From Paramacrobiotus metropolitanus (lineage: Eukaryota > Tardigrada > Eutardigrada > Parachela > Macrobiotidae): 64,000 nucleotides of DNA. The position numbers and the translations under genes are program-made. Location: the NCBI RefSeq assembly GCF_019649055.1, contig NW_026570279.1, positions 62,001 through 126,000 of the forward strand, given 5' to 3'. Shown one piece after another: positions 22,091 through 57,625 of the stretch. Within the stretch, counting starts at the first letter, position 1; each line of letters begins with the position of its first letter. Below the pieces are notes generated by a model. It ran no database searches, was not told the origin of the DNA, and worked only from the letters and a program-made list of their open reading frames with translations.

Positions 22091-22954
22091 ATGCGGAATT
22101 ATCGCGCTCCTTCGCCGTTATGGAACAGCACTGTCACCCTGCCCGAGCTGACTGTCTGGATCACTGCACAATTTTTAATCGGCATTGCCGGCGCCTTAAT
22201 GATTGTCTTTCTAATGATGGCCATGTCACGTTTGCGAAAAATCAACACATTCTCTGGTTGGCTAATTCTGCACTCATTGGCCCTCGATCTGATCTTTTGC
22301 GTAATAGCTAACCCAGTCATCAACGTCCCAATCTATCTCACCCAGTTACGTATAGAGTTTCCCTACCACTGCGTTCCAGCCAGTTTTCTGTTGGTTGTAC
22401 TTATTCACGCCAGAAATTGGACAGGGGTGGCACTGTCATTTAACCGCTTCCTCGCCATCGCCGCTCCGTTTTGGTTTAAAAAACTGCAGTCACAGTGGCA
22501 CGCCATGATCATTCCAGTATTAATTTGGCTCATCGCCATTGGCTGTAATATCCCACCGCTATTTTCTGCGGGATTGACACACGGCCGTTTGCAGTCGGGC
22601 GGCTGCGGATGGGTGCGTAAAGATGGCGCCACAGTCCCGCTTCTGGGGACCATCGGCACATATTTGCCCATTGGGATAATGTGTTTAGTGTACATCACTC
22701 TGTTCGCCGTTGTGGAGTGTATGCAGATCTCGAACCGGCGGCAGAGTACGGCGGGCGGTGATCTTCCGCAGAATCGCATGCTGCGACGCCGTCTGCATAC
22801 AACCGAAGCGTTATGCTTGTCGTTCATTTGGTACTGCGCATGCACACTGCCACCGGCAATTTTGACAATGTTTTATGCGGAATGGTGGAGCAAAGAAATC
22901 CGCTGGTTACTGTGTACGAAAATCACCCAGGTGTCGGCTTATGCTGCCAGTCCG
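22091..22954 (+). CDS. Orphan class A GPCR, exon covering N-terminus to start of TM7
   Basis: A 288-codon open exon starting MRNYRAPSP, with one N-glycosylation site (N12). Seven-helix pattern: TM1 about 22-45, TM2 56-83, TM3 96-120 with NRF (118-120) in place of DRY, TM4 138-158, TM5 184-208, TM6 238-261 with CTLP in place of CWxP, and the beginning of TM7 at 272-288. Cys94 and Cys172 are placed for the TM3-ECL2 disulfide. It ends at a GTAAGC donor just before the expected NPxxY, so TM7 must be finished by another exon; if the donor is skipped, the frame stops 11 codons later. It looks closest to melatonin/moody-type orphan receptors, but no ligand can be named. A possible but weak continuation (AATCCC, NPLLLF) is at about 23292. 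A repeat element starts about 75 bp downstream. Confidence 0.85.
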
Positions 22955-23414
22955 GTAAGCCACAGTATAGAAACTCCTGACTACCGTTGATTGACTGTTA
23001 AGAAAAAGTTGATTGTTAAGGAAAAGTTTCAAGCCGGGCGGCCCAGGGACTGAAATAGTGGAAAATCAATGATGGACGCCCCTGGGGGGCTTCGCCCCGG
23101 GGAAGCCTGAAAACGTTTGACCTTTTGTACGAATTAAATATTTAAATTTTGATGAATTTCTGAATGGCTGTTTCGAGATGACGTGACGGTTGTTTGGGGA
23201 AACGACATCTTTATACACAACTGTTTAATCCGACCGGGTAATCAATTCGCGCGGGGAGTAGCTACAAAATCACGATGTAATGAGTGTAATCCCCTGCTTC
23301 TGTTTACCGGCTTCTTTCCTTCTCTCCAGCTCCCAGCTTCCCTATGGCTACGCGACAGGTCGTCGCGGGACATTTGGTTTTACGGACATTTCGTCTAAGG
23401 ACAACTCGTTTTTG

Positions 23415-30654: not shown

Positions 30655-32105
30655 GCAAAGGGCAGGGGATAAAAGGTGGCAGTGGCACCTGCCACTGGCA
30701 ACTGCCACCGGCAGTGGCACTTGCCACTACGCGTTCTGGAAAGCAATAAAACGTGGTAACTTTTAAAAATTCAGAATCAGCTTGAGACAATTTTCCCATC
30801 CAACGATAAGTTCTAGGGAGAGCATTTTCGTGTTTTGGCAGATGGACTCTGTAGAACTTGTCTATGGACGCACACCCCAGCTGAGTCTTGTATCCGCGCC
30901 TTCCAATGCAGTAGTAAATGAGTGCTGCAACGCTGTTTAGCAGACGAAGCTGTCACAGATTACAATCCAAGTGCGGTAATGTGAAGTACTGTAAAAGCGT
31001 TCCATTCCTGCATTCAACTAATAGCTGGCGATCTCCAGAAATCGCTTGATTTTGAATAACACAATGCCATGACACATACCGACTATTCTGTCACTCATGA
31101 TAAGCGTGGCGTATAACAAGCGTGTTGGACGAAGGTCCAGTATGTGTCATAAAAACAACGAAAATTCAAAATTCGTTGTGTATCGTTCAGGTTTTCGTTT
31201 CAGTTGTGAGTATTCGTACTGCAAAAAACTAGTGTGGCAAAAGACTTTAAAGCTGGGGGGGCCTACAGGCCCGCGGCCGTAGGGCTGAGTCTGACTCTGA
31301 CTATTTAAAGCCAGAGACAGACTATCAAAATTCGGGTCTTGCTCATTTTTTATCGTTGTGTTAGAGTCTTCTTAATTTTAGATTTCTTAGTTTCTTGGAT
31401 TTCTTGGGCTTTTTAAAAATGAACAAATCACCCTAAGAATTCTAAGGAACGCAAAAAGCGCAAGAATATTTTAAAAAAATAAGTCTTAAAAGGCTAAAAA
31501 AATGTTTTGTCTGTACAAGTCACACTGCAATGCCACGGGGGACGCAATGCAAGCCGAATTGCAGGCGCCTTTGTCCACTGACGGATGTGGCGAATGTGAC
31601 GGTGGCCGCATTCATGTGCCAAACACCGGATTAAAGTCCTCAAAGGCTTCAATTGCGCCCAACAAACTTGTAAGACAACGAAAAGGTAAAAAACCTGCAC
31701 TTGATTCTGGCAAACAAATAGCGCTTCTGGTTGTAATTTTTTTTGTATCTGTGCTGTAGATACTACAGATGTAAATCCGTGTGCAGTATTTTTTATTCTG
31801 TTTGTTTTCGTGTTCATCTTTTTTGGACAAACCGTGAGCGAACAATCGGTACGCATTCGGTTCGGTATCAGTCGTACTTAGTCGCGCTAAGAATGTTTTT
31901 TTATAATCAGGGTTCATCGTACTTGAGGCGGTCCATGCATATGCACGCCTTCAAGAGTTTAAGGTTTTTTGAGTTGTTAATAACGAGAAACGTGGTGCCT
32001 TCCTGCAGTATTTTGATTCTGAATTTTTAAAAGTTGCCACGTTTTATCGCTTGCCAGAACGCGTAGTGGCAAGTGCAGGTGCCACTGCCACCATTTATCC
32101 CCGGC
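30655..32105. mobile_element. Inner inverted-repeat unit with GGCAGTGGCACCTGCC arms
   Basis: The left arm (about 30655-30780) contains GGCAGTGGCACCTGCCACTG and CTGGAAAGCAATAAAACGTGG; the right arm (about 32016-32105) contains the same words inverted (CCACGTTTTATCGCTTGCCAG and GGTGCCACTGCC). Similar arms occur at 44300-44430 and 47700-47830, so these define a repeat family. The 1.2 kb between the arms holds no recognised gene; near 31250-31290 there is a GC-rich hairpin-like GGGGGGGCCTACAGGCCCGCGGCC run. Confidence 0.5.
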
Positions 32106-32689
32106 CCAAGCAAAGTGGGGTGAGCGCAGGAAGAGATGTGCGGTGCATGAAATATTTTGGTTCTTCGGTGATTCACTGGTGGTTTAGTGGTGGTTCACCG
32201 TGGTTCTCTTGGTTTACTGGGTTCAACCAAAGTGGGGTAAGCGCAGGAAGAGATGTGCGGTACATAAAATATTTTGGTTCATCAGTGGTTAACTTGTGGT
32301 TTACTGGTGGTTCAATTGGTTTACTGGGTTCAACCAAAGTGGGGTGAGCGCAGGAAGAGATGTGCGGTACACGAAATATTTTGGTTCATCGGTGGTTCAC
32401 TGGTGGTTCAATGGAGGTTCACCGGTGGTTCAGTTGGTTTACTTGGTTTATACAAAGAGGTTTTAGACATCGGAGAGGCGCGCGGCGTTTCGATTGTGTT
32501 AGACCATTGGTTTGACGTGCTCTGGTGCTTCTGGTGCAGCGAGTTGGGTTCGGGCCACTGTCACGTGAGTGGTTAAAGGGGAGCTTGCCGTCTTTGCTTG
32601 GTTTACTTTGTTTAAACCAAGTAAACCAGTCATGGACTAAGTACTGGTTTAAACACATTGAACCCTTAATGTCCTAACTTAGACATTCT

Positions 32690-33675: not shown

Positions 33676-36600
33676 ATGGACCCTACAGAAGAAGACGCCG
33701 CCTTTTATGCTCGTTTGAACTGCACAACAAACAGCTCGGCGGATGTGCTGATGTTTGTGAATCAGAGTGATCCCGGCTACCTGGCCCAGAGATATAACTA
33801 CATCAGCATTCTGCTCATCTTGGCCGGTTTCGGTGTGGTGCTTAATGCCAGCATGATTGCGCTCCTACTGAAGGGTGCCTTGTATCGTCATTCGACCCTG
33901 AGCATACTGGTAGGTAGACTTCATCAGCATTCCTGGGAACTTTCGAGAAAAAGAACAGCATGGGTAATTTACGAAAAAATCAGGATGTGTACCGCTTTCC
34001 AGGTTTGGTTTTTTCACTGCCATTCCTGTTAATACTGGCCTTATTCTGAACTGCCAACAGGCGCGTATGGTCGTTTCAAGATAATAATAACGCAAACGAG
34101 CTTTTTTCTTTCTGCATGTATGTGCTCCTGCGGAAACATGTTTCTAGAATGTGACTGAAATTTAGCTGAAAACTGTATGCTGAAAATTTAAAAAGCAAGA
34201 AAACCGATTTTTTCAAAAATCAAAAAAATGCGGTTTTGATTTGGAAAAATTTTCCAGAACTGTCTCATTTTCCTTTTCGATTTTCGTTACGAGAAGTAGC
34301 AATAAAGCAAAAGAAAGCAAAGAAAGAATTTTTTAATGCGTTGTTCGGAAACATACTGATACGGAATCAGTCTATCTGCCTTAGTGATGCACAGCAATAC
34401 ACGCAGCGTTAATCGAACGTGATGTGAGGCGAGTGTTAACGAGCGTACATTAAGCCCTTTAACCACGGTGTAATCGTGCGTATCAGCGTATACAATAATT
34501 ATACAGATACGTAAGCGCGTGCATTTGCCGTATCGGCTATGAGGAGAGGACGCGGTAGAACATAATATGTAACATCTGCACATGAGCACTTCGATGTCAC
34601 ATGAACATAATGACATTGATAATTTAGAAATGAGGCGGCGTCTCGGTAATCGTCGACATGTCACGGGATACAGTTAATGGGCTTTCTTGAATGCAGGGAA
34701 TGAGTTTTGTTGTAATTATCAGTTAGGTATTTGCATCATGCGTAAATGTTTCAGTTAATGACATCGTTGTATTGCATAACAATGCAGGTTTTAATACAAG
34801 TATCATCAAGAAGTATGTTCAAGATATCTGTGGTTTCTTCAAATGGTTCATTTTAAATCTAGGTCATACTAGTGTTTAGGTTTAACAGTATCGTCTACCA
34901 TTCGCCCCGCTTCTGTATTGGGGTCTTTGCTCGAAAAATTAAGTGTACTAGCTCGCTAACCGACTAACGATATTAAATATTATTTGTACTGCTTTGCAGT
35001 GGCGTAATTTTGTTTGTTTTTTTTTGCAGTCAATGCAGCTGTTTGCGGCTAATCTGTTGGTGTCGGTGTTTTGTCTGCTGGCTGACGGGATTTGGAACAT
35101 CACCATGCAGTGGTTCGGCGGGGATTTTCTTTGCAGAATCATCAAGTTTTGCCAGATGTTCAGGTGCGTTCTTCAACTACATATCTCACCAGTACACTGC
35201 ACGTTTCCGCAGACCGCACCCTCATCGAGCAACTTAGCTGTGTGTTGATCTGGACTTCCGTATCGTGCCGCACGATACGGAATTCAAAATCAACAGATAG
35301 TTTGTGCAATGCAGCTGGCAGGACCCGGACGTAATGATCCGGCGCGCGACGAGCGGAGTAATTGACTGTGTGCACGCACGCCGATGGTCCGCTACAGCTC
35401 AGCTGGAAAACACGCGGGCCTTTTGACGGCACGGCGAGAATCTGCTATTTGAACTTCTACACACGGCATAATTAGGGTCGGCTGGGACTTTGCATGCCAC
35501 TGTACACGCTGGTCTACGCTGCAAGCGTTGACAAAGCTAATCGGCCAGATAAATTCTTCGCATGAGACCCCAGCGCTAAATGCCCGCATTCATTATTACA
35601 GCCAGCTTCTAATTTCAGTTAGTGGTACCGACGAAATCGAGATCACATCCCAGCGGAAAACGCGTCTCTTAATTTGGAAATCACAAAAACAATTTAAAAC
35701 ATTTCAGAAAAAATTAGGGATAAAAAATACACCAACGATAGCTGGTGTGTCCAGTTCAAAATACGCTTCTACTGCAGCTGATATTTGAAAAGCCAACAAT
35801 GCTTCACGACGTGAAGTGTTGTTGTCTTTTCCATATTTTACCGTACAGTGGAACCTCCCGACCCTGAACACTCTCGGTACGGGGTTTCTTGTTCAAGGTT
35901 CGGGGGTGTTCAGGGTTCAGAAGTGCTGCCCCTGGGGGCACCGACGCCCCTGGGGGGCGCATAAAATTCCAGACGGAGTAATATGCATTATATAAGTGCG
36001 TACAATAATAAACAAAAGGATATATACCGTTCTTACATATATTTCCCGGCGGAAGTTAATAGTTAAGTTGATTTTACGTTATTCTTATGCTATTTTTTTC
36101 CGTCGTTATGTCTAATATTCAAATTCATTTACTGAAACTAAGGCTACTAATCGGTAAAGTATGAACTAAACGTTATTCTCGGCTATATAATTGGCTTGCG
36201 ATGAAATCCGTGATCACATTCAACACTTCCCGGATGCTTTCGCTGCTTCGCACACAACGCAAAGCAGCTCTCTGTTCACGGTTGGAGGTCCATTTTACTA
36301 AGTAAACGTGTCACGGTACGCAGCCAAGTGTTCAAGGTTCAGGATTCAGAGGTGTTCAGGGTTCAGAGGTCCCCCCAATGTTATAGCTTACGAGAGCTGC
36401 GCGTACGAAAAATATTGTTCAAGGTTCGGGGTTGTTCAGGGTTCAGAGGTGTTCAAGATGGGAGGTTCCACTGTATATCATCTGCTACAGTACACTGATT
36501 TACGTATAATAACGATGTTTCAGTTTATACGCCACCAACCTAATCCTCACCGGGATGAGCATTGAGACCTGCATTACTGTGACCTTTCCGCTGAGTAAAT

Positions 36601-39600
36601 CCAGTAAGGTGGAGAGTCAGTCGCGGGTAAAAGTCATCAGCGGATTCGCCTGGATCGTCTCGTCGGTGTGCAGCGTACCGCAGGTAGATTAATTAGCGGT
36701 TGCGGAATCATCTGTACAGCCGTTGTCGCTGGTGAATTAGCAATCAAGGGGGTCAAATTTAAGCGCGCTACTCTTCATCAGTCTGACGCTAGACTGACGT
36801 GTCGGATTGTTGAAGACATGGTCATCGTAGAAAAATATTCGCATCTTCTAAGTGGATCAAAATTTGTAGCGATTAAAAATGATGTGAAAATGGTCGATTT
36901 TTATTAGAGCCTAGCCCAGTTGCATTATCTTTATTTTTTTTGTTATTTTTTCGTGAAAAAACACACCCGCCTTGAAACATTTCCCGGAAAGGTATCCTAC
37001 ATTGCAGTCGTACATAATCTACGTGGCTTGCCAGGGCCGCGTCACCGGCTGTTAATTCAGAGAAATTGTGAATTTTGCGGGAAGACAGAGGAACATCCCA
37101 ATTTGCAAAAAAATTTTAATTTCATATTTCATCTGTCATGGCCAAGAGACGTGGCCAGAACAAAAATTAAAGCGAAGTCTGTTTTGAACTGTGCTATAGC
37201 CAATGGGCAATTCACCGCATCATAGCTTTATAAGGGATTACGTTATCGAACGATCTGTACGAAACCATGTTAACTTCGGTCGTTTGAATTTTATTCTGTG
37301 CTGTCTGCTTACAATAATTATTCACCATTTCTGGAGACGGTAGAGTTTACAATTAAGTATTTCTCTAAGTAGAAATGAATCGGGCGTATTTGCTTCTTAC
37401 AGACAACAGAGTACTTCCCGTTGAGTTCACAATTTTCCAATCTTTACAACATCAAAGTAACAAGCGCGTACCGATGTACAGCCCTTCTACACCAAGTTCT
37501 ATGCAGTAACAAAAATTTCTCCTCTACGACCGTTGAAATAAAAAATTTTATGTAATTTTTTATGATTGATTTTGATAATCAGCAACTTTCTAAATTATTT
37601 TGCTATGCAAAAAGCTAGCCTAGCGCACTGATCGCGTAAAACTGTTTTGTTAACCCGTCCTCGAAACCTTGTCGGTCACTAAAAATATTTTGAAAAAGTT
37701 CACGCAAAAACCCTGACTGGGGATTTTACGAGAGTTGCCGATATAAGCGGTCCGATTTATCCCCTACCCCATGCCCTTAATTTGCCCCTGTCTCTCTACC
37801 GACGTAGCAAAAGATTCGGATTTTGATATTGCCAGATGCATAACAACAAGTTATACCAGAAAAGTGCAAACAGCGACAGAAGACGACAAAAAAGAATGTT
37901 TGATAATTTGTTTTCAGAAGTGTCCCATCTTGGCGGCGCAGGGCTGTATGTACTTATCTCGGCAGAACAAGTTTAATCCTGAGCATTTTCAAATGCGCTT
38001 CACAGGCGGCTGAATTGTAAAATACTTATGTGTGTACTGTCACTTACAGTTTTACACATACGACTCGGTACGAGTATAAAGTAGTATACCGCCGTAAGTG
38101 AGCAACACAGATAAAATTTTGGAATAAGTGAATTGCCATGGCCGGTTACAGGCTGTTAATTAACTTTATTACGCATGATGCACTGCATTGCCCGCAGCCC
38201 GCCACAGGTTACAATACAGTGTAGAATTATCAACATTTAAATTTTATTCTGGGCACGCCCGTTGACGATGGCAGATGAAATCATTTTTATGCTTAGTCTA
38301 ACGTTCCTCTGTCTTTCTAGACAATACGAAAATTTATTTTTTCTGAACTCATAGCCGGCGAGGGGGCCATGGTTAAATCCAGAGGTACATATGGTTTGTT
38401 CTTACTTATATTACTTTTACGTTATTTATTAGTTATTCCTATGTGTCGTACGTTTCTTACGGTCTACATATGTAGCGGCTATGTTTTCTGATATTATGCA
38501 TATAACATTTTTTGCTTCGTGTTCTTATATTGCTTTTATATGTACGAGTATTTCGTATTTCGTATTTCGTATTTTATATGTACGAGTATTTCGTATTTCT
38601 CGAGTTATTCAGCCAAATATCAAAGAAACAAGAAGAGTATAATTTGCAATAAGAAAACCTAAGAACAACATCAGTTTGACAAAAAAAACAGAAAAAGATA
38701 CGAAAAGCATAAAAAGCAAAATTCGAGAAAGCAGTGGTAGGGACCGATAGATAAAAATTAATAGCATTACATACCGTTATGAAACAACATGCGTATATCC
38801 TTAGTAGTACCAAACCTTAAGGTTTAAACCTTAAACTTAAAATTTAACCCTAAGGCTTAGTCATATTATGATACACTGTAAAGTGTAAGAGGACCGAATG
38901 CACAAGGCGTCCGGCGACACAAGGAGCGTTTAGGTAACATGAGGCATAAGATAAACAATCGAGCATAAGATAACAGTTGCCTTATAAGGCACCTCTTGTC
39001 ATATGGTGGATTGTTTTTTGCATTCTTATGTTGTATAAAAATATAAGAAACAGACGGAGACTGCAAAAGGTCACAACGCCTTTTGCTGGGCTTGGGTCGA
39101 GTCAACGTGACATGGGTCACCACTCTTACATACACTCGTTAAATAAATTTTCAAAAGCGGCAACTTGGATGACGCCTAAATGTGTCGAATAAAACCCACA
39201 CTCGGGTAATAATTATGTTATTGTATTTCTTGGTTAGAATTCCGTGGGAAAGAATGACAAGAATGTCCTTCATCCGGCGTTTTTGCAGGCGGTGATTTTT
39301 CATACGGAGCGCGCGCCTATTTGCGTCAAATTCTATCAGTGCGTTACGCACGGCTTCTACTCGAGAGCCGATCAAGAGCTAGCCTACGCCTTAGCTACTC
39401 TCATCGTCATGTGCTTGGTTCCATTATGCATTATTATTGTCTGCTATTTGGTCATTTCCGTGGCTATTACCAAAGAATCAAGGATTGCGGCCGGGAGTCC
39501 TGGTAGGTCAATTTTAACTGAAGAAACAGATCCACACTATTTTCCGGTTACGATTCCGGGATGCTTGAATTACTGTCCTCAAGGTCCATTAGATTTCGGT

Positions 39601-41660
39601 TACTGTCAACTGAGAAATGCTGGTTACTGTCCTGCTTAGAAACTAGCACGTACTTTGTGGGCATTGCTGTTATTAATGCAAGATACATAATCCAGTTGAT
39701 TTCAACCGAGACAAATATTAATTCAACTTCAGTGATATAATATTATCTATTAATTATTAATATTACTAATATAATGTCGGCTTATTATGTTTATCTAAAC
39801 GGAAGCGGAAAAGGTTCGCCAGTTTCGTGATCCACACACAGACACCGGTCGGTCCCTGAGTACTGCGCATCTTCACAGTTTTCACCCGATCAGAATTAAA
39901 AAAATAATTCTTTCTGTGCACCTCCTTTTACCGTCGCTAATTACATAGACGCCTCTGTTCGGACCCTCTTTGTTACAGACACCCTATCTTACAATAACAA
40001 TAATAATATACAATATTATTCTGGAAATTACTAAAGCCACCCTTTTCGCACCCTGTTTTTTATAGCCACACTTTTCTGCTATTAATTAAATAAAGACACC
40101 CCATTGTGCTTCTTCATAGACACCCATTTAATTCGTCATTTTTAAGATTTCTGATTTATTTAGGACAACGCGTGATCTTCGTGATATTTCTAAGAATTTT
40201 GATTCTGCACCAATTCACACGTTTGCGTGGTCCTTGCGTGCTTTGCAGAGAGTGCGAGCAGTCTTGACTGGCCGAGCAGGCACAGTGCTTCCGGTATCTG
40301 GCTTACTCTTTCCTTGGTTTCCTCAGCTGGCTGTGTGTTATTGAAGGTTTTTTCGGCGCATTCCAGATGTAATTCGTCTTCCAGCGATGCAGTGAACGCG
40401 TATCAAGGTGCTGATTTCTATAGTCAAGCGACCATGGCAATAAGCCGAATTTAACGTGTTAAGTTCTCGTACAAATTTGCACTTACTTAAGGGTGGCTAT
40501 GAAACACGGGGGTGCTGGGGGTGGCTAGAGTGTCACCCTAATATTATTATCCTATATAAATTATGTGAGCTTGATATCATCCACAGATTCCAACGTCAGT
40601 TTCGTTACTGTGACAGATATTTGCGCAAATGCTGCTGCTACTGCTGAAAAGGGTCAGTCGAATCTGATAGACAGCCGCATTAGAACTGTGCCGATAATTG
40701 TGTGTTGAAATTCCGGTAAAAATCAGTAAAGATTTAGGCAACCCTACGGGGTAATTAGAAAGAACTATATTGGAGTTAGTTTTTTAAAATATCGGTTAAT
40801 TATATAAGGCACAACGAATGCATTTCTGTCAGTTTTTACTGAAATTCTTTGGCAAAGTGGAAAATTTTAGTTAATTTTTCGTCTCTAGATTTTGCCGTTA
40901 ATTCGAGAATGTGCCCCTGTCATCCAGAAGAAACCAGCACGTCCCTGTCTAGTGAGCAAAATAGCGCGGTGCTGCGTCCGAGCAGTACGAGAAAGGGTAA
41001 ACGGCTGTACCAGAAAACCCGGAAGATATCATTGTGGATGACTTTCATTACGGCTGCCAGCTTCGTTATCTGCTGGAGTAAGTTTGGGTAGTAGGTATCT
41101 CAATCGGAGAGCATTAATAGTACTTGGCGCTGCAAAATATTACAAACTACACTTCACCTACGACGTAATGATCAGATCAAACTTCTTATTTGGTTGACTT
41201 TAACACATACCGTCTTCCCCGAAGTATTCCTTACAAGCAGTTCTCCTGGTAACATTAGCATACTTAACCGTGTTCTCGTGCACTGTAGTCCCGTACTATG
41301 TGGGAATGTTGGGGTATTTGTTCCAGTGGAGCATTTCCACTCAAACAATGACCATTATTTTTTGTCTCGGTAAGCGCTGCTCTCATGCAAATGAGAAAAC
41401 TTACACATAAACGAAGTACGATTGCTGAAAAAACTTAAAAGCATGCAATAAGATAAAGTGAATTAAATCGAATTTGATATAAGCCAGGAAAAACAGGTTA
41501 ACGAGATACCATTGGTTTTTTATGAATTTTCTTACCCTTGGATACTCTAGTAAAACCAGCAAATGAACTACGAAAAGGAAAATAAATTGCAGGAATGAGT
41601 TTTTCGGTGGTCAATCCGATTATTTTTGGTGGATTCCTGCTGACCCGTCACTCCACCTAG
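33676..41660 (+). CDS. GnRH/AKH/corazonin-family neuropeptide GPCR, complete, seven exons, 359 aa
   Basis: Exons: 33676-33909, 35030-35163, 36524-36683, 39289-39502, 40889-41077, 41289-41369, 41593-41660, all GT-AG and in phase. It starts MDPTEEDAAFY, with N-glycosylation sites N15, N19 and N29. TM1 ISILLILAGFGVVLNASMI; TM2-ECL1 FCLLADGIWNITMQWFGGDF; TM3 SLYATNLILTGMS; TM4 FAWIVSSVCSVPQ; ECL2 with YQCVTHGFYS; TM5 QELAYALATLIVMCLVPLC; TM6 SFVICWIPYYVGML; TM7 SVVNPIIFGGF. CSVPQ-AVIFH, QCVT and ELAY are family hallmarks of gonadotropin-releasing/adipokinetic hormone and corazonin receptors, class A, plasma membrane. Odd points: the DRY motif is ETC (137-139), NPxxY is NPIIF, and translation stops eight residues after GGF, leaving essentially no cytoplasmic tail. 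The introns carry a pogo-like MITE (35846-36473) and other AT-rich repeats. Confidence 0.93.
35846..36473. mobile_element. Pogo/Tigger-like MITE, 628 bp, TA target site, in receptor intron 2
   Basis: The ends are CAGTGGAACCTCCC and its exact inverse GGGAGGTTCCACTG, with TA on both sides (35844-35845, 36474-36475). The subterminal words TGTTCAGGGTTCAGAGGTGT and TTCAAGGTTCGGGG occur at both ends. CAGTGGAACCTC is the classic terminus of pogo/Tc1-group elements. No transposase remains. Confidence 0.85.
38545..38605. repeat. CGTATTT / TATATGTACGAGTATTTCG short tandem repeat
   Basis: The word TATATGTACGAGTATTTCGTATTTC occurs twice about 40 bp apart with extra CGTATTT units between. It lies in intron 3 of the GnRH/AKH-type receptor. 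Confidence 0.6.
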
Positions 41661-42000
41661 AGCAACCAACAATGGCACTGTCCAGTTAGACGACCTTTGT
41701 TTTTCTCCTCCATTTTCTAGCGTAGCACGCACCGCTTTTTGCATTAATATTTTGTTGATTTATCTTGTCATGATCTGAGTGTTAAGCGCCAATTTTACTA
41801 GATAACTTTCATTGTTTTTGGTAGCAAAATGACTGCGGCAGGAATATTTGGTGTTCGAACCGTTTGGTCAAGAATGACTTTTGTGATATTGCGGATTTTG
41901 TGCTGTTAGTATGCTTTTTGTACGGAATTGGTGCTATTGGGTTAGCCTGTTTAAATGAATTTATTGTCCTCTGCACCTAAAAAATCTGGAGGGCGAATGA

Positions 42001-42006
42001 AATAAA
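42001..42006 (+). terminator. Possible polyadenylation signal AATAAA
   Basis: First canonical AATAAA downstream of the receptor stop codon (340 bp after 41660). Plausible for that gene, but no transcript evidence. Confidence 0.25.
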
Positions 42007-42745
42007 ACTGACTTACCATCTCGTTTACCGCAAGCTTTCACCAGTTGACCGCTAATGCAGATTATTGCAGAGGTCATGCCCGCATCAACAACAACTGTGT
42101 GGATGTATCGACATTCTAGAGATGCGGCTGAAGAAGCCACAAAACCACTCGCGTTTGGATTAACGGCCGAGTGGTGTTCGACAGTTGAAGTAGGTAATTC
42201 AAAATTTAAGCTATACAAGCGTATTTATAAAGCAAGTATGATCCGCCATACAAATTTTAGTGTTAGTGTATACCTTAGCATATCTGGGATGGCAGCGCAA
42301 CTGCTCTCCTGAAAAGCGCAACTGCTCTCCTGAAAATGGCTTCCATGTGAAAGCAAATCATCAGATTCTCGTCTGAACTTCAACAAAATTCGTAGGGTTG
42401 TCCAGGTGGACGTGTGGTGGGAATGGGAACAGGAAGTGATGTGATTGGTGTTAGAAATACTGGTTGCAGTTTATGTTTGTAGATATACCTACTTTAAGCC
42501 AATCGTAGCCTATGAAAACACGTTCCTAGCACAACATTGTTCCTTTAGTTCTTCTCAAATAACACATTCATTTCTAAAATGTGATATTCCAAAGGTCACG
42601 CGTAACGTCCCGCCGAACCGCACTTGTACAACAAAGAAGTCTGCTTTGACGCATGTAGTATACTTGTTAAGTAGTATATGTCAGTAAGTACCGTTACGAG
42701 TGAATTACACCAGGAGTCCGAAATCAAAACTGCACGCAACGAAAC
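42007..42745. other. Spacer between convergent genes, no gene seen
   Basis: Contains a short tandem duplication of GCGCAACTGCTCTCCTGAAAA near 42294-42336. No coding exon recognised. Confidence 0.3.
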
Positions 42746-43305
42746 CTAATGGGTTCCGCAGTTATTTTCATTAACAGGCTCGTCTTCCAGTTCCTCGAAG
42801 TCGGAAGAAAAATTCAAGGACAAGGAGTAGTCGTCCTGATGAGCTGCAGATGGCTCACCGTTTATCGGCACTTCTTCCTCACCGTGTTCTGCACTTCCCG
42901 TTGTTTCCTTTGCTGTAGAGACCATTGGCTCGGCATGCTTTTTTACAGCATTCAGTTTCCGTTCGCGCTGTATGTGCAACTTTACTTTAGCCAGATCGAC
43001 TGTCAAGCCGCTTTCCTGGCTTTTTAAGAATATTTCCCATGAGCAGTATATTCTCTCCAGTCCGACGGCATTCGGCAACAACTGCTGATAAAGTTCGCTA
43101 CTCGGCACTGCACCTCGGCACTGCACCTTTCGCAAAGCAGTGTATGTTCTGGCCGGAAGCGGTCCGCTGTACTGCACCCGTCGCCAAGCACTGCCGGCTG
43201 TTCTCGGAAGCACTCGGCGGTACTGCTCCTCTTGGTGGAAACGTTCTCGCTTAAATACACTACGAGAACCAAAAAGGCCAACCGTATACGTTGGCAGTAA
43301 CGTGA
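42746..43305 (-). CDS. Possible terminal exon of an unknown protein with acidic C-terminus
   Basis: A minus-strand frame stays open for about 185 codons from an acceptor-like ATAG at 43306 to a stop at 42746. It has a basic, glutamine-rich start (VFKRERFHQEEQYRRVL), a central SELYQQLLP...LERIYCSWEIFL part, a charged helix-like QRERKLNAVKKHAE part and an acidic end (SSDFEELEDEPVNEN). This looks like protein rather than chance, but no family is recognised and there is no in-frame ATG near the start, so it would be a last exon. A different frame of the same stretch starts MSRYCQRIRLAFLVLVVYL, resembling a signal peptide; one of the two is a shadow. Part of the DNA (43080-43220) is a GC-rich tandem repeat of GGCACTGCACC-like units, which weakens both. 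Confidence 0.3.
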
Positions 43306-44149
43306 CATCTATTCAGTAGAGGTCTGGCGTTTTTTGCGGAACGCAACCTTACAGCAGGAGTATTTCCACAAATTTTACAAGGGATGAAAGATTCATATTG
43401 CGCGGCGACCGGCAGTGGCGGCTGGGGTTTGTCTGAACAATATTACCTTAGTTTCCTTAACATGGTTACCTTTAGTTATCTTCGGAACCGCTTTCACTGA
43501 TTGATTACTTGCTTATTTATAGCTTTTTGTAATCTGGATATTGCGCCCGACCTAACGAACACACTCTTTATTTTAAAACAGTTTGAGTAGCATAGAAAGT
43601 AAAATCAAGGATTCTGGAGAAAGTAAACTGGACCTAAAGAAGGCTTATACAGATCTTTAGTCATAAAAATCACGTGATCTTTTTGAAAAACACCGCCTGA
43701 TGAGATATTACTGAGTAAAAGTATAGTTTCCGTTTCCGGTGGTAGCTTGCATACTGGTAAAATTCTCCCGGGAAAGCAAAAACACCTCAAAACGACAGCT
43801 AAATATATGATCACACCCCGAAAACCAGCAATGCGAGGGTTGAAAGAGACGAATTAGTAATAACAGTGGTGTTGTCTCTTTAGCGGAACATATTGAGTGT
43901 TTTGTGTCTGTTGCTTGATGTGAAGTGCCGGCAACTCGTACCCGACGTTGTTTAGTTGTATTCCATAACAATACAGATACGCCCCGACAGTGGTGAGAAT
44001 CGGGAAAGCGAAGCCAGTCAAAATCAGAGTTCGCGCATGACTTCGAACCACTTCAACATGGTGGGGAAAGGTTGCCCAAAAACTCGCATAACCCATACAG
44101 GTTGGAGATACACCTATGGCACAAATAGTACACGTTTAAATTTTTCGGG

Positions 44150-47100
44150 CATGTGTTTTAAGTTGTATCCACAGTATCTACAGTATCCTCCGCGGATCCT
44201 TCATGTATCCCCCAAATTGTGCACTTTGTTTTAGCTGCTGCTGTATTCCACCGTATCTCTGCAGTATCCTTATGTGCATCCCGAATGTAAGACTTGGTGT
44301 TATCCGGGGCAGGGGGTAAAACGTGGCAGTGGCACCTGCCAATGGCACTGCCAAAGGCATGGCAATCGATAAAACCTGGAGTATCTGGCAGCTGGCACGC
44401 GATATAACGTGGCAGATGCCACATAAAATGTGGCACCACGTATAAGCGGGCTCGGTGTGTTTCGTGAATTGTGTATACTTAAAACTCTTATCAGAACACA
44501 GTCAATTTTCCTGAAAAGTGCTACCTTCATGTGCCGTGCACTAAATGCGTAAGTGTGCAGACGGTATTTCATAACATTTCAAAAGGTCAACTTTGCATCT
44601 TGCTATTTGCACGAAGTACCGTAACAAAAGAACGAAAAGCCGCGTTAAAAATACAACCTCGATACACCCTTTAGGCACAATGCTGGAATAAAAGCATTTT
44701 ATCGTGGCACTTTATACCGATAATTACCTAAGTGCGGTAGAGTATTAAATACAGTCATTGCCGCTCTACAATAGTTCCGACTGAACAGTCAGAATTACTG
44801 TAGGCGGCAATGGTACAGTACCAGCATGATACACGATGCGTCAGGCTGTAATCTGGGTTCTACCCTCTGTAGAACCCCCTAAGTCATAAAAAACGGTGTT
44901 ACAATTATAACTGCAAGATATTTACCGGTGCCGGTGTGACAATAGTAGCAAAACTCAGGTTGTGTTATGGCTTTGAACTTCGAAGTACGCAACGCAACCT
45001 GCCACGGAGGCTTTTGTATGATGTTTGGCATCCGGTAGCAAAACTCTCAGACTAAAAATATACGTACGATCTCAGAAAGAAACCAACTTGCGCTGCTCAT
45101 ATCAAAACGCTATTCTTATGTTGCACGTGTTATATTCTTCATACGTCTAAATGTTTACATATTTTTAGTGTGTTCCCAAGTTTAGACTTTAAATACTATG
45201 TACATATAAACAGCATGAATGCTTGTAGTACAAAAGTATTTGTATAATAATAGGTATAAGTCACGGGCGGTGGTTAAACCACAGCATCTCCTTAAATGTT
45301 ATGCAGCGCTCAGCGCTGCGACAAACTCATTACCACCTTAGCTAACTTAAAATAATACCTACAGCACACAGTTACGCTGATAATTTATTAATCTAGTCCT
45401 CGTTTTGAACTTGACGCTTGTAATGTGCAAGTACTGAATATGCAAGCATATCTGTACGAAATTTGTTGGTAATACATGTATGACCTTTTTAAATTAACGT
45501 GTAAACCATCAAAATTTTATATTTAAGCATAATAAAAGTACACAATGTATAGTACAGAGTAGTGTTTTCAGACTTATTAGAAGCTTTAAAGAAAAATCTG
45601 CCAAATGTCAATAATAATTAAAGCAAAAAGTGGTGGAACAACAAATTAAACTACACAACTTACCCAAACCGGCATCATAGTCGCAAATACCGTGAACGCA
45701 GATACAGGCTAGTTCGAGTTTATTTTGACGTCGCGCGTCACTATGATACTGTAATTCCTAGCCAATTTAATAGAGTCCACATTTCATGAACGTGACAGCA
45801 GCGGCAGGTGCCGGTATTGTTAGCCACTCTAAAACTAGCGCCAGAAATTAGAATCACAATGCTCATTTTAGCATACGCACACCGCACAGCAGGATATACC
45901 GTATTTTGCGTACCTCTCGGGTTCATCTGCTTGTGTCACACGCTTATTTTCGCCGCTCTATGCAACGGGCAAAATAATCAATTAGCAAAACAAGAAGATA
46001 AGGTTAGCTGTTTGTGGAGTTACACTGTAAATGTAAAAGCGCGCTTGTACTTGGCACCGGTTTTTTGTAACAACAGTGAAGTTCACGTGCAAGTATGCAT
46101 GCAAGATACCGAGCAGATGGGACTAGCCGGAATTGTAGTGAACTAGATAAAAAATTAAAACATGACACACTGTTTACATTTGTTAGTGTTTGCCACCTTA
46201 CTGGCATTTGCCCGTAGTCTGTAGTCGAAACACTCGCAAAAACGCGGCTTCACTCAACAGTCTTTTTCCTTGCAGACATGTTCTCGTAATGTTGACAAAC
46301 GATTATAGCACTGGAGTTTCCTTCCCGGTCCGAAACTGTTTGTGTATAATACTGATGGCCTGCCGTAGAGTGTTACTGGGTATGTTTAATTAGCATTTAT
46401 ACTGCTCAATTTTTTTAAATTTTTCACTTAAGGATTGCAAAAGTATGAGCACTAGCACCATTACCATTAATTGCTGTTTTAACATTACGAGTATTGTTTC
46501 TATTTTTAAGCATGCAGTATTAGTATCGCAGTAAGTTTGTTGTTATCAAACAGCAGAAACGACTGGCCTAATCACAGAAAAAATCGATCTATATTAGGCG
46601 AAATACAGTAAGCAACGTAATGCATACAGTGCAAAAATATTATTATCGCTATACTGTATCCTCAGTACATAATTTAATTGCATTATGTGCAAAAAATTAC
46701 TAATGCAGTTTTGGGGATAATCATTGCCACTTTCTAGTACAACGTGAGCGTTATACAGCATGAACTCATTTCCGAATTATTACTGCAGTTTACAGGAGAG
46801 TGGCAGTGGTATAAAATTAAATTTGGGATTAGGATGGGATTAGTCTTCGCGACCCGCTCGCCATTTCGACGATGAAAATTCGTCGACCATCGCTTTGTCG
46901 AACAGATACGGCGTCGAGCTGGTGTTTAGCTAAACCGTCCTAGTTTTCTTAAATTTTCTTATACACATACGAGTATTTCTATGTTTCCGTCTCTTTTTTT
47001 TTATCCTTTCTTATATTTCCTTTCTTATGTTTTATGATATTTTCTCGTTTTCATATTAGTCGCGTTTTCATATGCTCTTGGGACGGTCGACGTAGTGCGG

Positions 47101-48675: not shown

Positions 48676-50437
48676 TAGTGGGTATTCTGCACGTGTTGCA
48701 AATATTGTTGATGTGGTCATTCTTTTCAATTAGCGTATCCCGCAGTATCTCCACGATATCCTTTGCGTATTCTCAGTGCATCCCGTAATTAGGTTTTCTT
48801 AGTGTTCATAGCTTTTCTTAGATTCCTTATTAGGTTTTTTAAGAGGTTCATGTGGGATACATTTGAACTGCAGAGATACGGCAGCAATCGAACAGATGTG
48901 AGAAAATTGTAAGGATACCGTGGGAAACGACGGGATACCGTCGGTACAAGCAAAAAAACATGTCTCAAAAATTATACGTGTACGAAGTCATCCATATCTA
49001 TGGTGATACACCGTTATCGTAAAGGAAGACATCATAGATCACGTAAAACTGGTGGATCATAGCCCACCAGTTTTAGGTTCTAGTCAAACAATGGAATTGT
49101 AATATTTGATGAGGAGTAGGTACATAATAATTGTTGCGACTGAAAACTGATCAGGTGAAAACTGAAAACATTATACCGCGTTTTTATGCCAATGTAGTTC
49201 AGACTTGTGCATGCGGGCACTGCAGTGCACATGTGCACCTAATATTTCGGAGTCAATGATTGCATGGGCTCTAATGCCGGAGTTAATTTTGCGTTTGTTA
49301 TACCGCGTTGCGAAGTGGTTATGACTGTCAGACAGAGAGTTGCATTTAGAGGATTAATTTCTCTACGTTCTGGTATGTACGTAATGAGTCAAGTCTAATC
49401 TTATGAACGTTTTAAAATGCGTTTGAAGGAAATAGTCTTGTTTTGCTCTACGGCATCGTACTGCCAAACGAGGGTGGTGGCAGTATAACAGGAGATTTGG
49501 AATTTGGATCGTTTCGGTGAAGCTCTCCTTGAAACGCTTGCCTCAGCTTTTCTTGGACACTTTTAATAACAATTTGTAGAGAAATGAATTTTCCACATTT
49601 TGATACGAAGTGAGCAGGTAAATTGTCTGAGAAAACGCAGCAGGAGCTCAAAAGGCTTGTACCACTACATACGCCTATGTAAAATCTGACTCGGAAATAT
49701 CACCCGCGCAAGTGTCGTACACGGAATTTGCCAGGCCCGTCTGCACAAGACTAAAGCTCATTTGGAAGGTACCAACAGATGATTTCATCAGAAACGTGGT
49801 GATGTTCGTAATTACTGTGAAAGCAGTAAGGAAATTTTACGATGTGCCAGTAAAAGAAGTGTCAAGTTTAAGGACGGCTGCGTTGGTGTAATTTGAAGTA
49901 ATACTGTGAAATTCCGATATTCTTTTGTGGATGCGATATCCGGCTGACTCGAGCAATGAACTCAAATCTCTGGAAAGAAAGCTCTTTCTCTGCAGCACCC
50001 AGCACTTGCCTATTAATGAGTCGTTCTTGTTTTTTCGAGTTTAGGTGTCACTGAATGTTACATTAACAGCCACGTAATCTGCGATAAGGATTAAAACACC
50101 CGACGCCCGGAGAGTCCCACTGGTCAGAAATTAGATCCTTGTGGGCACAGCATCCACATCCTTACCTTGATGAAACATCAACAATACTGTAATTTTCATA
50201 GCTTTCCCTTTTATTAAACATACACTACATACAACAGCTATGTTTTATTATTCAGGTTGAGGTTCTCCTGTGGGTACCCTCGAGCCAGCATTCTGAACGT
50301 GATTGAATATCCACTATGGTTCATTACACCATTTTCTTTTAAATGAAATTTACTTGCGTCTAGCTCAGCGCTAAAGATATCATTGGGCTTTTTTTCCAGA
50401 GTAAAGAGTTTATCTGCCGCCTCAAAGAGCGTCGCGT
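48676..50437. other. Non-coding spacer, no gene seen
   Basis: Begins with GTATCC/GGATAC-rich sequence (48720-48950) related to the element at 44150-47975, then AT-rich sequence with a short inverted repeat AAAACTGGTGG...CCACCAGTTTT at 49046-49075. No recognised exon on either strand. Confidence 0.35.
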
Positions 50438-51277: not shown

Positions 51278-52339
51278 CTATGTTGCACCAGATCTTTCAG
51301 CGTCACGCGTGGACGGACGAGGATGCTGTACGGTATCCGTTACCTGTCGCGACCTCCCGCTGTTACCGTTCTTCTGCAGTCCTACGAGGGTCAGACAGAA
51401 ATTGCGCAATTCCTTCACGCTTATGAAGAGGATGATCGCATCGACAGCTGCCTGGGACTCCACAATCCAGTTTGCATAATGGTAAAATTCGTCAGGAAAA
51501 TAGAACCCCCCGAAATCAGCTGCCAGAAACCCAATAGAAGAAGGTGTCCAGCTGACACCAACAGTAACGGTCAGCAGCGTTAAAACCATAAACGCTGTCC
51601 TGTTCTCTTTGCTCAAAGCGTTTCGGCTGCTGATTGTATCTCTTCCGGTTATTTCCCAACCTGCTGGTTTAGTGCGTCTTAATTTGAGTGTTCTCCAAAG
51701 CAGGTACGGGTAACCTCCAAGAACAATCACAATCGGCAAATCGAATATACAGATCTCGACAGTCTGGGCGTACGTTGCCTGCGCCGCAAAATTCCAGTTG
51801 CATCCATACTTTTCGCCGGAACAGCGATAATAAAGCGAATCATTAATCATTAAAGGCAGATTTACCACGTGGAGCAGTATCCACATCCAAGCACATAACG
51901 CACCGGCCAAGAACGTCGAGTGATACATACGGTAATAGTGCGGTAAGGTCACAGCTGCTATTCGGTTACAGGTGATGAGAACTTGCGTCCAGATCATACA
52001 CGGGTTTATAGTTCCTATAGCGTAATAGTAAACGTTACAGACCGCATTTCCCGACCACCAATTTGGCTTGAGCCAGTGAATTATATCAGAAAATTCGGTT
52101 AGAATCAAGTAGAGAATATTGGACGCAAGCAGGCTGATAAGGTAAATGAAAAACGAGCGGTGCTGATTTGTTTTCAGAATCAGCACACTGCAAGCAGTTA
52201 TATTCAGCATAAAGGTGGAAATGCTGGTAAATACTCTGAAACCGGCTGGAAAGTTCCACGTAATGTTGGTTAGATTGCTGTCAAATTTCGGGGTGGTCAC
52301 GTTAGCTTCAGTCAGATTGCCAACTATGAAACTATTCAT
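51278..52339 (-). CDS. Orphan class A GPCR, complete single exon, 353 aa
   Basis: Starts MNSFIVGNLTEANVT with four N-glycosylation sites (N8, N13, N22, N25). Helices: TM1 about 33-55, TM2 63-87, TM3 100-127, TM4 142-165, TM5 192-215, TM6 249-273, TM7 286-307, then a 45-residue Ser/Arg-rich tail ending RDAERSGAT. Cys101 and Cys173 or Cys180 suit the TM3-ECL2 disulfide. TM3 ends CNRIAAV, so DRY is NRI (125-127); TM6 has SWTP (263-266) for CWxP; TM7 has DAIILF where NPxxY is expected. The whole frame is intact and intronless, as in lineage-expanded orphan receptors of small invertebrates. Ligand cannot be named. No clear promoter or polyA site picked out. Confidence 0.88.
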   Translation of the reverse strand: MNSFIVGNLTEANVTTPKFDSNLTNITWNFPAGFRVFTSISTFMLNITACSVLILKTNQHRSFFIYLISLLASNILYLILTEFSDIIHWLKPNWWSGNAVCNVYYYAIGTINPCMIWTQVLITCNRIAAVTLPHYYRMYHSTFLAGALCAWMWILLHVVNLPLMINDSLYYRCSGEKYGCNWNFAAQATYAQTVEICIFDLPIVIVLGGYPYLLWRTLKLRRTKPAGWEITGRDTISSRNALSKENRTAFMVLTLLTVTVGVSWTPSSIGFLAADFGGFYFPDEFYHYANWIVESQAAVDAIILFISVKELRNFCLTLVGLQKNGNSGRSRQVTDTVQHPRPSTRDAERSGAT

Positions 52340-53570
52340 GCTGGCTTAAATTGCTGGAAACATGTTCTATTCGATTTATCAGTTTTTTGGGCACTAATAA
52401 CTTAAAGTTTGGAATATATCCACACTGTGCAGAAGGTTTAATGGACATTGTGATCACTTTCTGCCCGGTGAGGATGTTTACAGCACAACGCACTCCGGAA
52501 GTCCGTGTGTGTAATCCAATTAATTCCGCTTTCTCTGCTTAAGTCGCAGATGGTCTTCGCGAGCATCTGCATTTATATATGGTAAGACCGTAAGTGCCCT
52601 CGACAGCACAAGGGGCGCAGAAAAGGAAAATCCATAAAGGAAGGAATATCTCAGTATCATAAAAACGCAATACTACGACTTCGCTCGTAGATTGGTCAAA
52701 CTTACTGTACGGGTCAGTACTTTGATCACCCATGTATTATGATTTTTCAACTTCACTGAGATTTTAAAAAGTTATTTTCTATCCCTTTCACGTATTCAAC
52801 TTTTATTCTCTTTGCCAAGACACAGTATACGCTATGATAATTACCAATCTAAGTACCATTACTTGTATAACAAGTAATAACCAACATGATCACCAATCGC
52901 ACAAACGTCACAGAAACCTCGGAATCTCGCTTATTTTTACCTTACGCCGGACTTTCAGTTTATTCATTATCACTTAAAATGCAATATAGAAATTAAAAGT
53001 GTAAGTTGGAAACTTGTAACACAAGATTTAGGATAACGGATCATGTAACACGCCGCATGAGGGGCTGGTGATCAATGTACTGACCCGTACAGAAGGTTTG
53101 ACCAGTCTACGAGCGGAGTCGTAGTACACGTGGCAGTTAAAATTTTAAAGGTTGGCCTTTTCAACTGGTATAAACTTGGAAAGCGCACTATTGCGTGCAT
53201 TGGTTGAGGAACAAAGGTTGTTCGCCATCGGTTTTTTTACGGGTACTTGATTAATAAACAAACTACAACGAACAAATCTGCATTCGGTCTCGTTCCTGTT
53301 AATCATTTGCCATAGGAAAACGTATGCTTAAAGCGACCAGATTATTCGGCAAACCGAAGTACAATGGAAGACAAAATTTACTTAACTCCGGACCGTTAGC
53401 CGCTGTCGGCTTACAGCGCACACGATGAATTAGCGCCGCATATCCGTCGCTACAGCAGCTCACTGAGCAGAAGCGCGGCAGCCGTGTTCTCTCTGTTCTC
53501 TGTCTAAAGCTAAAGCCGCAAAACCGGTTCCGAGGTTAAGCAAATTTTGTCGTCCATTATATAAACAGTA
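52340..53570. other. 5' flank of the single-exon GPCR, no gene seen
   Basis: Should contain the promoter of the minus-strand receptor. The words GTACTGACCCGTACAG and TTGGTCAAACTTACTGTACGGGTCAG (52694-52720) recur inverted at 53075-53105, suggesting a small inverted-repeat insertion about 400-500 bp long (roughly 52555-53125). Confidence 0.35.
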
Positions 53571-56099: not shown

Positions 56100-56388
56100 T
56101 GTACAGTTTCAGATTATCTGAAGCCGTGACCAATGTTCGTCCTTTAACTGCACTACCGGAAAAAATTTGGAAAATGTATGTATATATGTACGAGATGGTA
56201 TATACGACGATTTTATGCACGAACGCGGACCGACAGATCAATTTTTGGCATACAAAATAAGTTAACTTTTGTATTTAATTGGCGCTTTTGAGATTCTGTT
56301 TCCTCTTTCGTTTCCAAGCATTTTTTCCAGGGTTAGTTTTCCTACGTTTAACCTGGTTTTAAACACTTCCCGAACCAGAGGTAGCTTA

Positions 56389-57000
56389 AATTATAGGCAT
56401 ACCGTACGATGTCTCGAAAAAAAACAGAGGCACTGGTACCGGCGGTCGGTATACCCACAAGACGGATGAAACTGGCGTGCGTATGTATACTGCAGGATAA
56501 GAAACGGTCACAGCGGGGTCCTTCAGAACAACCGTGGAGATACAGAAACGGCGCTTATGGGATACAAGTGGTATATGTACGCATACTGTGGGATACGGAG
56601 CGGGTACAGCGGGGTCTCTAAAGTGAACGATAGGGATACATAAAGGTCGCTTACGGGATACAGGTGGCATACGTAAGCATACTGTGGGATACGGAGCGGG
56701 TACAGCGGGGTCTCTAAAGTGAACGGCAGAGATACATAAAGGTCGCTTACGGGATACAGGTGGCATACGTAAGCATACTGTGGGATACGGAGCGGGTGCA
56801 GCGGGGTTTCTAAAGTGAACGGCAGGGATACACAAAGGTCGCTTACGGGATACAGGTAGCATACGTACGCATACTGTGGGATACGGGGCGGGTACAGCGG
56901 GGTCTCTAAACTGAATGGTAGGGATACATAAAGGTCGCTTACGGGATACAGGTGGCATACGTAAGCATACTGTGGGATACTATGGATACATCCGTTAGAG
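56389..57000. repeat. 96-bp minisatellite, about six copies
   Basis: The anchor GCATACTGTG recurs at 56581, 56677, 56773, 56869 and 56965, exactly 96 bp apart; a diverged unit starts at 56485 and a weaker one before it. A unit holds GATACGGAGCGGGTACAGCG, GGTCTCTAAAGTGAACGGCA and GGTCGCTTACGGGATACAGG. Because 96 is a multiple of three and units lack stops, two different minus-strand frames stay open across the array (190 and 171 codons). That is a property of the repeat rather than evidence of coding. Confidence 0.9.
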
Positions 57001-57625
57001 AGTGTCCTGAAAAATTTATCGTGTACTAACCGTGCCATAGGTGTAGATTAGATTGATTTGGCGTTTAACCAATGTTCATTTGTGTAACCAATTAAAAAAA
57101 CTCGCTTGCCTGTCCAGTAGGCCGTTATAAGGTTATTTCCCGCATAAAAGCAATCGTAAAGTTATTAAAAGTTCAGAATTATACCCGTATGACTGACTAA
57201 AGCCATTCTTCATTGCATTTTTATGGGGAAACACTGTTGCCTGCGCAAAAAGTGCACGCTTCAAACAAATTTTGTATCGCGTTAAAGTCGCCACAAAGAG
57301 TCGAAAACAGCGTTTAGTCTTCAGTTTCAATACTGAAATCCGATCCATATTCACTAATGAGCCAGTACACTCTCATATCACCTTTTCCCTGCAACCAGAT
57401 GCCAAATACAACCAATTATAATTATTGCGTGTATTACTACAGAAAAACATCGCACGGATAATTACTTTGATTTTCATTATCCCACGTATCTTCAGCTCAA
57501 AGTTCCCGGTTGTTACGAGATTGTTTCGTGTTCTCTCACTGCATTGAATCCGGAAAGCTACGAAAAGTGGAATCATTTCATAAAGACGGAAACACTTCAT
57601 AGAGCACGGTTCAAAATGATAGCTT

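Follow-up and report, generated by a model that had tools for sequence, protein, structure and literature searches.

A predicted GnRH/AKH-type receptor of Paramacrobiotus metropolitanus with ETC in place of DRY and no cytoplasmic tail in the genomic model

The arginine of the DRY motif normally switches on the partner G protein of a receptor, and the inner tail normally helps to switch the receptor off. What could then be the function of a receptor that has neither? This question is raised by a seven-exon gene in a 64,000-nucleotide stretch of the genome of the tardigrade Paramacrobiotus metropolitanus (contig NW_026570279.1 of assembly GCF_019649055.1, positions 62,001 to 126,000; the whole stretch is called the window here, and positions are counted from its first letter). 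The gene is predicted to encode a receptor of the superfamily that comprises the receptors for gonadotropin-releasing hormone (GnRH), adipokinetic hormone (AKH), corazonin (CRZ) and AKH/corazonin-related peptide (ACP). A preliminary description, made from the sequence, had drawn attention to it. A single genomic prediction is a lead, not a finding about function, and the functional readings below are worded as such.

Gene structure and family placement

We found that the seven exons, spanning 33676-41660 (+), splice into 1080 nt, which is divisible by 3 and has one terminal stop, and encode a protein of 359 amino acids (aa). All six introns are of the GT-AG type, and an in-frame TAG forms the second codon 5' of the ATG. 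The introns of this gene contain stop triplets at a frequency of 0.052, and at that rate a run of 359 codons would stay open by chance with p ~5e-9. The earlier statement that the seven exons join cleanly is thus borne out. The features of the gene are given below, with Ballesteros-Weinstein positions counted by us from the anchor residues (TM, transmembrane helix; ECL and ICL, extracellular and intracellular loop).

33676..33909, +: exon 1; start codon, N-terminus, sequons N15, N19 and N29, and TM1 with N1.50 (N57), from splicing, translation and numbering
35030..35163, +: exon 2; TM2 with N2.50 (N86, codon 35051-35053), D2.61, W2.64 and N2.65, then ECL1, C3.25 and Q3.32
36524..36683, +: exon 3; remaining TM3 with ETC replacing DRY, ICL2, and TM4 with W4.50; phase 0 end after Q176
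36564..36572, +: the ETC codons GAG ACC TGC (E3.49, T3.50 and C3.51), within exon 3
39289..39502, +: exon 4; ECL2 with the disulfide Cys (C194), and TM5 with P5.50 and Y5.58; phase 1 end in ICL3
40889..41077, +: exon 5; Ser/Thr-rich ICL3 (EETSTSLSSEQNS, residues 261-273) and TM6 as far as CW
41289..41369, +: exon 6; remaining TM6 (IPYYV, Y6.58), ECL3 and the start of TM7
41593..41660, +: exon 7; NPIIF (N7.49, F7.53), then GGFLLTRHST and the stop
42001..42006, +: AATAAA, 341 bases 3' of the stop; the sole AATAAA or ATTAAA in 41600-43500

The third-position GC of the gene is 0.625, compared with 0.33-0.46 in its six introns and with the lower values of 0.579 and 0.516 in two long receptor open reading frames (ORFs) nearby. 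When neutral decay was simulated (2000 runs, with assumed indel rate and splice-site counts), the gene stayed intact in 20% of the runs at 1% divergence, in 4.6% at 2% and in none at 5% or above. In these simulations, a change from Arg to Thr at 2% divergence arose in 0.5% of 20000 trials starting from AGA and in none starting from CGC, these two being the only ancestral Arg codons tried. Therefore, Thr3.50 more likely arose while the gene was still held by selection. Neither a broken frame nor broken splice sites, which would mark a pseudogene, were found, and an old pseudogene is made less likely by the third-position GC and the decay simulation. We concluded that the gene is intact and probably under selection, the latter being judged indirectly.

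The sole Pfam domain above the cut-off in the 359-aa receptor is 7tm_1 (E 2.5e-30). Among the best 60 of 326 PDB matches, the top three were GnRH receptors, 7br3, 9u4w and 9u4y (108.7, 108.2 and 99.4 bits; best E 2.9e-30), and the next were oxytocin receptors at no more than 74.4 bits (E 7.9e-20), with no AKHR, CRZR or ACPR chain among these 60. The three GnRH receptors served as our references; two of them are near-identical, making effectively two. The receptor is 29-32% identical to the GnRH-receptor segments taken from these matches. It carries the class A landmarks N1.50, C3.25, the ECL2 Cys, W4.50, P5.50, CWxP and P7.50, and agrees with all three GnRH receptors at C3.25, the ECL2 Cys, CWxPYY, W4.50, P5.50, D2.61, W2.64, N2.65, Y6.58 and F7.39. 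Several pocket residues are kept along with the landmarks. A DRxxxI/V motif at the TM3-ICL2 junction is a feature of most GnRH receptors (PMC4964986; here and below, papers are cited for particular passages or tables, and the statements apply to those parts). The receptor reads ETCITV at this place; the motif is a usual mark of signalling and is not counted as a mark of descent.

The intron positions point to the same family. In human GNRHR, exon 1 has 522 coding nt with intron 1 after codon 174 (Gln), and exon 2 has 220 coding nt with intron 2 at phase 1 in codon 248 (PMC10650312). Intron 3 of the tardigrade gene follows Q176 at phase 0, and as Q176 aligns with human Q174, it occupies the same site as human intron 1. 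Intron 4, at phase 1 in codon 248 within ICL3, lies ten residues past K238, and its human counterpart lies eight residues past R240, which aligns with K238; by this alignment it is probably the same intron as human intron 2, displaced by two residues in the loop. The four other introns are without a human counterpart, because human GNRHR has only two. Exon 1 of the human gene and exon 3 of Drosophila AKHR reportedly share their end point, despite wide differences in overall gene structure (PMC1762030); exon 3 ends at this site here also, a likeness to the arthropod AKH/RPCH, ACP and corazonin receptors of the same superfamily. The GnRH receptors as top PDB matches, the landmarks and the common intron positions uphold the family named in the preliminary description, and by these sequence marks the gene is a predicted class A member of the GnRH/AKH/corazonin/ACP receptor superfamily. 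An alignment of the receptor with the three PDB GnRH receptors picked out 34 stretches in viral contigs and 15 in genome contigs, none of which was confirmed by tblastn.

Altered switch residues and the short C-terminus

E137, T138 and C139 sit 24-26 residues past C113 (3.25), hence at 3.49-3.51, and align with DRS, DRS and DRQ of the three GnRH receptors. Both the counting and the alignment confirm that DRY is replaced by ETC, as described earlier. None of the six Arg codons can be reached from the T138 codon, ACC, by fewer than two substitutions. Asn occupies 2.50 (N86); two of the GnRH references agree with this, and 9u4y has Asp. At 5.58 it is 9u4y that agrees with the receptor, both having Tyr, and the other two references have Asn. 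Residue 7.53 is Phe (F349), whereas all three references have Tyr. Residue 7.49 is Asn (N345), which is the class A norm, and all three references have Asp there. N2.50, F7.53, N7.49, Q3.32, the AATAAA at 42001 and the introns common with human GNRHR go beyond the preliminary description.

Arg3.50 is 96% conserved among class A receptors (PMC3414077). It is present in 52 of 52 rows of a crustacean receptor table covering the superfamily and its neighbours (PMC10912298 Table 3: 8 GnRHR, 5 CrzR, 6 RPCHR, 5 ACPR1, 7 ACPR2, 5 VR1, 6 VR2, 9 CCAPR and 1 outgroup; crustaceans, one of them Daphnia), among them all 23 CrzR, RPCHR, ACPR1 and ACPR2 rows, whereas the receptor described here has Thr. Phe7.53 appears in five rows of this table, all VR2. 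Among the matches listed in our literature searches, drawn mostly from non-subscription literature, there was no report of a superfamily member lacking Arg3.50, nor of a decoy member.

After F7.53, the receptor ends with ten residues, GGFLLTRHST, and what remains of exon 7 is too short to hold a complete helix 8 or a tail. Human GnRHR has five residues after 7.53 (328 aa, PMC3367945; Tyr323, PMC5662886). The early end had been described before, with eight residues following NPIIFGGF; the end itself stands, and the count is corrected to seven (LLTRHST). The absence of a cytoplasmic tail likewise holds for the genomic model.

The preliminary description had named a downstream tail exon or a TM3 exon coding for DRY as evidence that would overturn it, and neither was found in the genomic sequence. 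Acceptors were accepted down to 1.5 below the score of the gene's weakest own acceptor over 41640-47000; the 23 candidates at or above this cut-off, inspected by eye, included none that continues like a helix 8 or a tail, and all lie 3' of the AATAAA at 42001. A possible donor, TTG|GTGGAT, lies after 41628, one base past the F349 codon, and scored 6.1 compared with 6.8-11.9 for the gene's own six donors, from which the scoring matrix was built. A tblastn search of the 64-kb window with the receptor revealed no alternative TM3 exon, the only TM3 exons matched being those of other receptors. On the + strand, [DE]R[YFWCHLM] triplets occur four times in intron 3 and not at all in intron 2, and by eye none has a TM3 context.

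Among jawed vertebrates, tailless GnRH receptors of type I have an ancient origin (PMC4232701), and since these receptors lack it, the tail is not counted as a mark of descent. Other invertebrate superfamily receptors, such as Aplysia GnRHR, have a C-terminal tail (PMC4964986), whereas the receptor here has none in the genomic model. The matches listed in the literature searches held one review of truncated receptors and no report of a tailless or dominant-negative AKH receptor. We compared the receptor with human GNRHR, a type I receptor. The two are alike in being tailless and in Asn2.50, the DGxWNITxQW stretch, CWxPYY and Y6.58, as well as in the codon and phase of the intron at human Q174 (Q176 here) and in a second, phase-1 intron in ICL3. 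They are ~32% identical over the aligned part. From the human receptor to this one, Arg3.50 becomes Thr (DRS to ETC), Asp7.49 becomes Asn, Tyr7.53 becomes Phe, Glu2.53 becomes Val (V89) and Lys3.32 becomes Gln; the receptor here also has a long Ser/Thr-rich ICL3 and ten residues, not five, after 7.53. Hence, of the features of type I receptors, the lack of a tail (in the genomic model) and Asn2.50 are present, and Asp7.49, Glu2.53 and DRS are not. The type I comparison drawn in the preliminary description is therefore sound for taillessness and Asn2.50 and fails for Asp7.49 and Glu2.53. As these two residues are missing, convergence is more likely than type I membership.

ICL3 is rich in Ser/Thr (14 of 53 residues), with the dense cluster EETSTSLSSEQNS. 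Using what we take to be the arrestin phosphocode pattern, we counted three matches in this loop, compared with a mean of 2.0 in shuffles, and 33% of 5000 shuffles did equally well. The matches are no stronger than composition gives, and therefore only the Ser/Thr-rich composition of ICL3 stands. Phosphorylation of this cluster could substitute for that of a tail.

Other sequences in the window

Directly upstream of the receptor gene lies a 107-base repeat in three copies, 75-100% identical (32083-32413); a 25-base probe from it had 0 matches in the viral contig collection. No tRNA and no Rfam match were found within the 64-kb window.

Three other receptor sequences are present, and unlike the gene at 33676-41660, they keep arginine at 3.50 (NRF, NRI and ERY). 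An ORF of 304 aa at 22076-22990 (+) encodes a class A receptor with NRF at 3.49-3.51, matching 7tm_1 (E 2.3e-16) and also the chemoreceptor family Srx (E 1.6e-08); NPxxY is missing from its end, and there may therefore be another exon. An ORF of 355 aa at 51278-52345 (-) encodes another class A receptor (7tm_1 E 1.5e-16) with NRI at 3.49-3.51. Weak, relic-like tblastn matches to the latter lie at 43742-43983 (-; E 0.002) and 49786-49902 (-; E 0.009), and Pfam detected no receptor domain in 43711-44052 (-). The third, at 17582-18021 (+), is receptor-like, having ERY in 17582-17839 (7tm_1 E 1.3e-10) and continuing in another frame (17785-18021) without a Pfam match of its own; it is possibly a fragment, a decayed gene or a gene with an unseen intron.

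The ends of the window, 1-6137 and 57672-63703, hold mutually similar blocks, 80-97% identical and 56-59 kb apart (among the best 20 of 24 repeat families). Guanylyl-cyclase-like exons occur at these ends, with HNOB at 62700-62963 (-; E 2.8e-18) and a sub-threshold HNOBA match at 61235-61537 (-; E 7.4e-05). A 96-base unit is repeated head to tail at 56464-56980, where two open minus-strand frames, 56386-56979 and 56523-57047, are found.

Possible functions and rival explanations

The most likely reading, which holds about half of our confidence, is that selection maintains a receptor which has retained peptide binding and has little or no coupling to G protein. On this reading, the transduction end of a receptor of the GnRH/AKH/corazonin/ACP superfamily would have been rebuilt; the receptor would reach the cell surface and bind a GnRH/AKH-like peptide, and its G-protein coupling would be weak or absent. 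Such a silent or low-efficacy binder may limit a canonical sister receptor, whether through competition for the peptide or through pairing between the two receptors; being tailless, it would presumably be cleared slowly. For a dominant-negative partner role there is a precedent, a truncated human GnRHR isoform that is reportedly dominant negative (PMC10650312). A stricter version, in which coupling has been given up and selection keeps the gene as a silent partner or sink, or for an arrestin route via the Ser/Thr-rich third loop, with the tail lost convergently, appears doubtful to us.

Evidence from other receptors supports the earlier proposal of altered G-protein coupling as a good inference. 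All five tabulated Arg3.50 substitutions of human GnRHR were impaired: R3.50H and R3.50K were undetectable, R3.50Q was expressed and did not couple, and R3.50A and R3.50C gave reduced receptors (PMC5662886). In mouse GnRHR, D7.49N lowered the coupling efficiency (PMC5662886), and in CCR5, H4R and M33, Arg3.50 substitutions removed or lowered coupling or function (PMC3414077). T138 also agrees with a feature of decoy and atypical receptors, which behave like C5L2 or D6: the lack of a positive residue at 3.50 (PMC3414077). Among natural receptors without the arginine, there are examples of both outcomes, C5L2 being silent and EHV2 ORF74 active. C5L2 (C5aR2), which has DLC and NPxxF, reportedly does not couple to G protein (PMC2697321, PMC3414077), and other forms of signalling have also been reported for it (PMC2697321). 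It resembles the tardigrade receptor in lacking Arg3.50 and in having Cys3.51 and Phe7.53 (PMC2697321), and differs in family and ligand, in its short ICL3 and in having Leu, not Thr, at 3.50. EHV2 ORF74 (DTW) is a natural receptor with Thr3.50, as here; it is, however, a viral chemokine receptor with constitutive Gi signalling that is also ligand-responsive (PMC3414077).

The activity of ORF74 is one of several points that weigh against a weakly coupling peptide binder. H2R mutants of Arg3.50 retained their agonist response, with lower efficacy (PMC3414077), and Y7.53F raised the coupling efficiency of mouse GnRHR (PMC5662886). As R3.50H and R3.50K were undetectable, loss of the arginine may cost expression, and not coupling alone. 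On the ligand side, residue 3.32 is Gln and residue 5.39 is Ala, where all three GnRH receptors compared have Lys and Asn, respectively; a change of K3.32 to Gln in GnRHR lowered both GnRH affinity and signalling (PMC5662886). We also took the columns in which all three GnRH receptors agree and the receptor is ungapped, and counted those where it has the same residue: 19 of 54 in the extracellular half of the helices, 20 of 38 in the cytoplasmic half and 11 of 17 in the loops (outer compared with inner half, Fisher p 0.13), a trend that favours the inner half. The halves were divided at what we take to be the helix ranges. Conservation of the ligand half as a sign of a sink was accordingly rejected. 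The ligand-sink role suggested in the preliminary description is possible and gained no positive evidence here, since the outer half is not preferentially conserved and ORF74, with the same Thr3.50, signals.

In one rival, possible though on the unlikely side, the receptor signals through a non-standard switch: its neighbours Y5.58, F7.53 and N7.49 would reshape the network so that Thr3.50 is tolerated, permitting ordinary, constitutive or biased G-protein signalling, and the lack of a tail would bring slow desensitisation, as in type I GnRH receptors. The behaviour of ORF74 and of Y7.53F agrees with it, as does the presence of Y5.58, an active-state partner that is Asn in human GnRHR; against it stand the Arg3.50 substitutions in GnRHR, CCR5, H4R and M33 and the effect of D7.49N. 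It is unlikely that the gene model is incomplete and that some transcripts encode a protein closer to the canonical form through RNA editing, a tail exon or an alternative TM3 exon: the possible donor after 41628 would allow it, but the 23 acceptor candidates beyond the AATAAA offer no tail-like continuation, and neither tblastn in the window nor the triplets of intron 3 supplied a second TM3 exon. A recently dead gene, its frame still unbroken, is very unlikely. It would fit the several switch residues that differ from the GnRH receptors compared, and the window does hold a frame-changing receptor-like stretch (17582-18021) and weak relic-like stretches of another receptor; the steep fall in the simulated chance of remaining intact between 1% and 2% divergence, the rarity of the Arg-to-Thr change and a third-position GC exceeding that of the nearby receptor ORFs speak against it. 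The sequence comes from a single assembly, and an error in sequencing or assembly might in principle have made ETC or the early stop; this is extremely improbable, as Thr3.50 requires two wrong bases in one codon, 2.50, 3.49-3.51 and 7.53 all differ from what is usual in class A, and the frame is unbroken through all seven exons.

If the prediction is true, a natural GnRH/AKH-type receptor that lacks both Arg3.50 and the tail would offer a ready natural test of which signalling parts are dispensable, and it would point to repeated loss of the tail in the evolution of the superfamily. If, in addition, the silent-partner or sink version holds, the receptor would be a natural decoy-type receptor of hormones of the GnRH superfamily.

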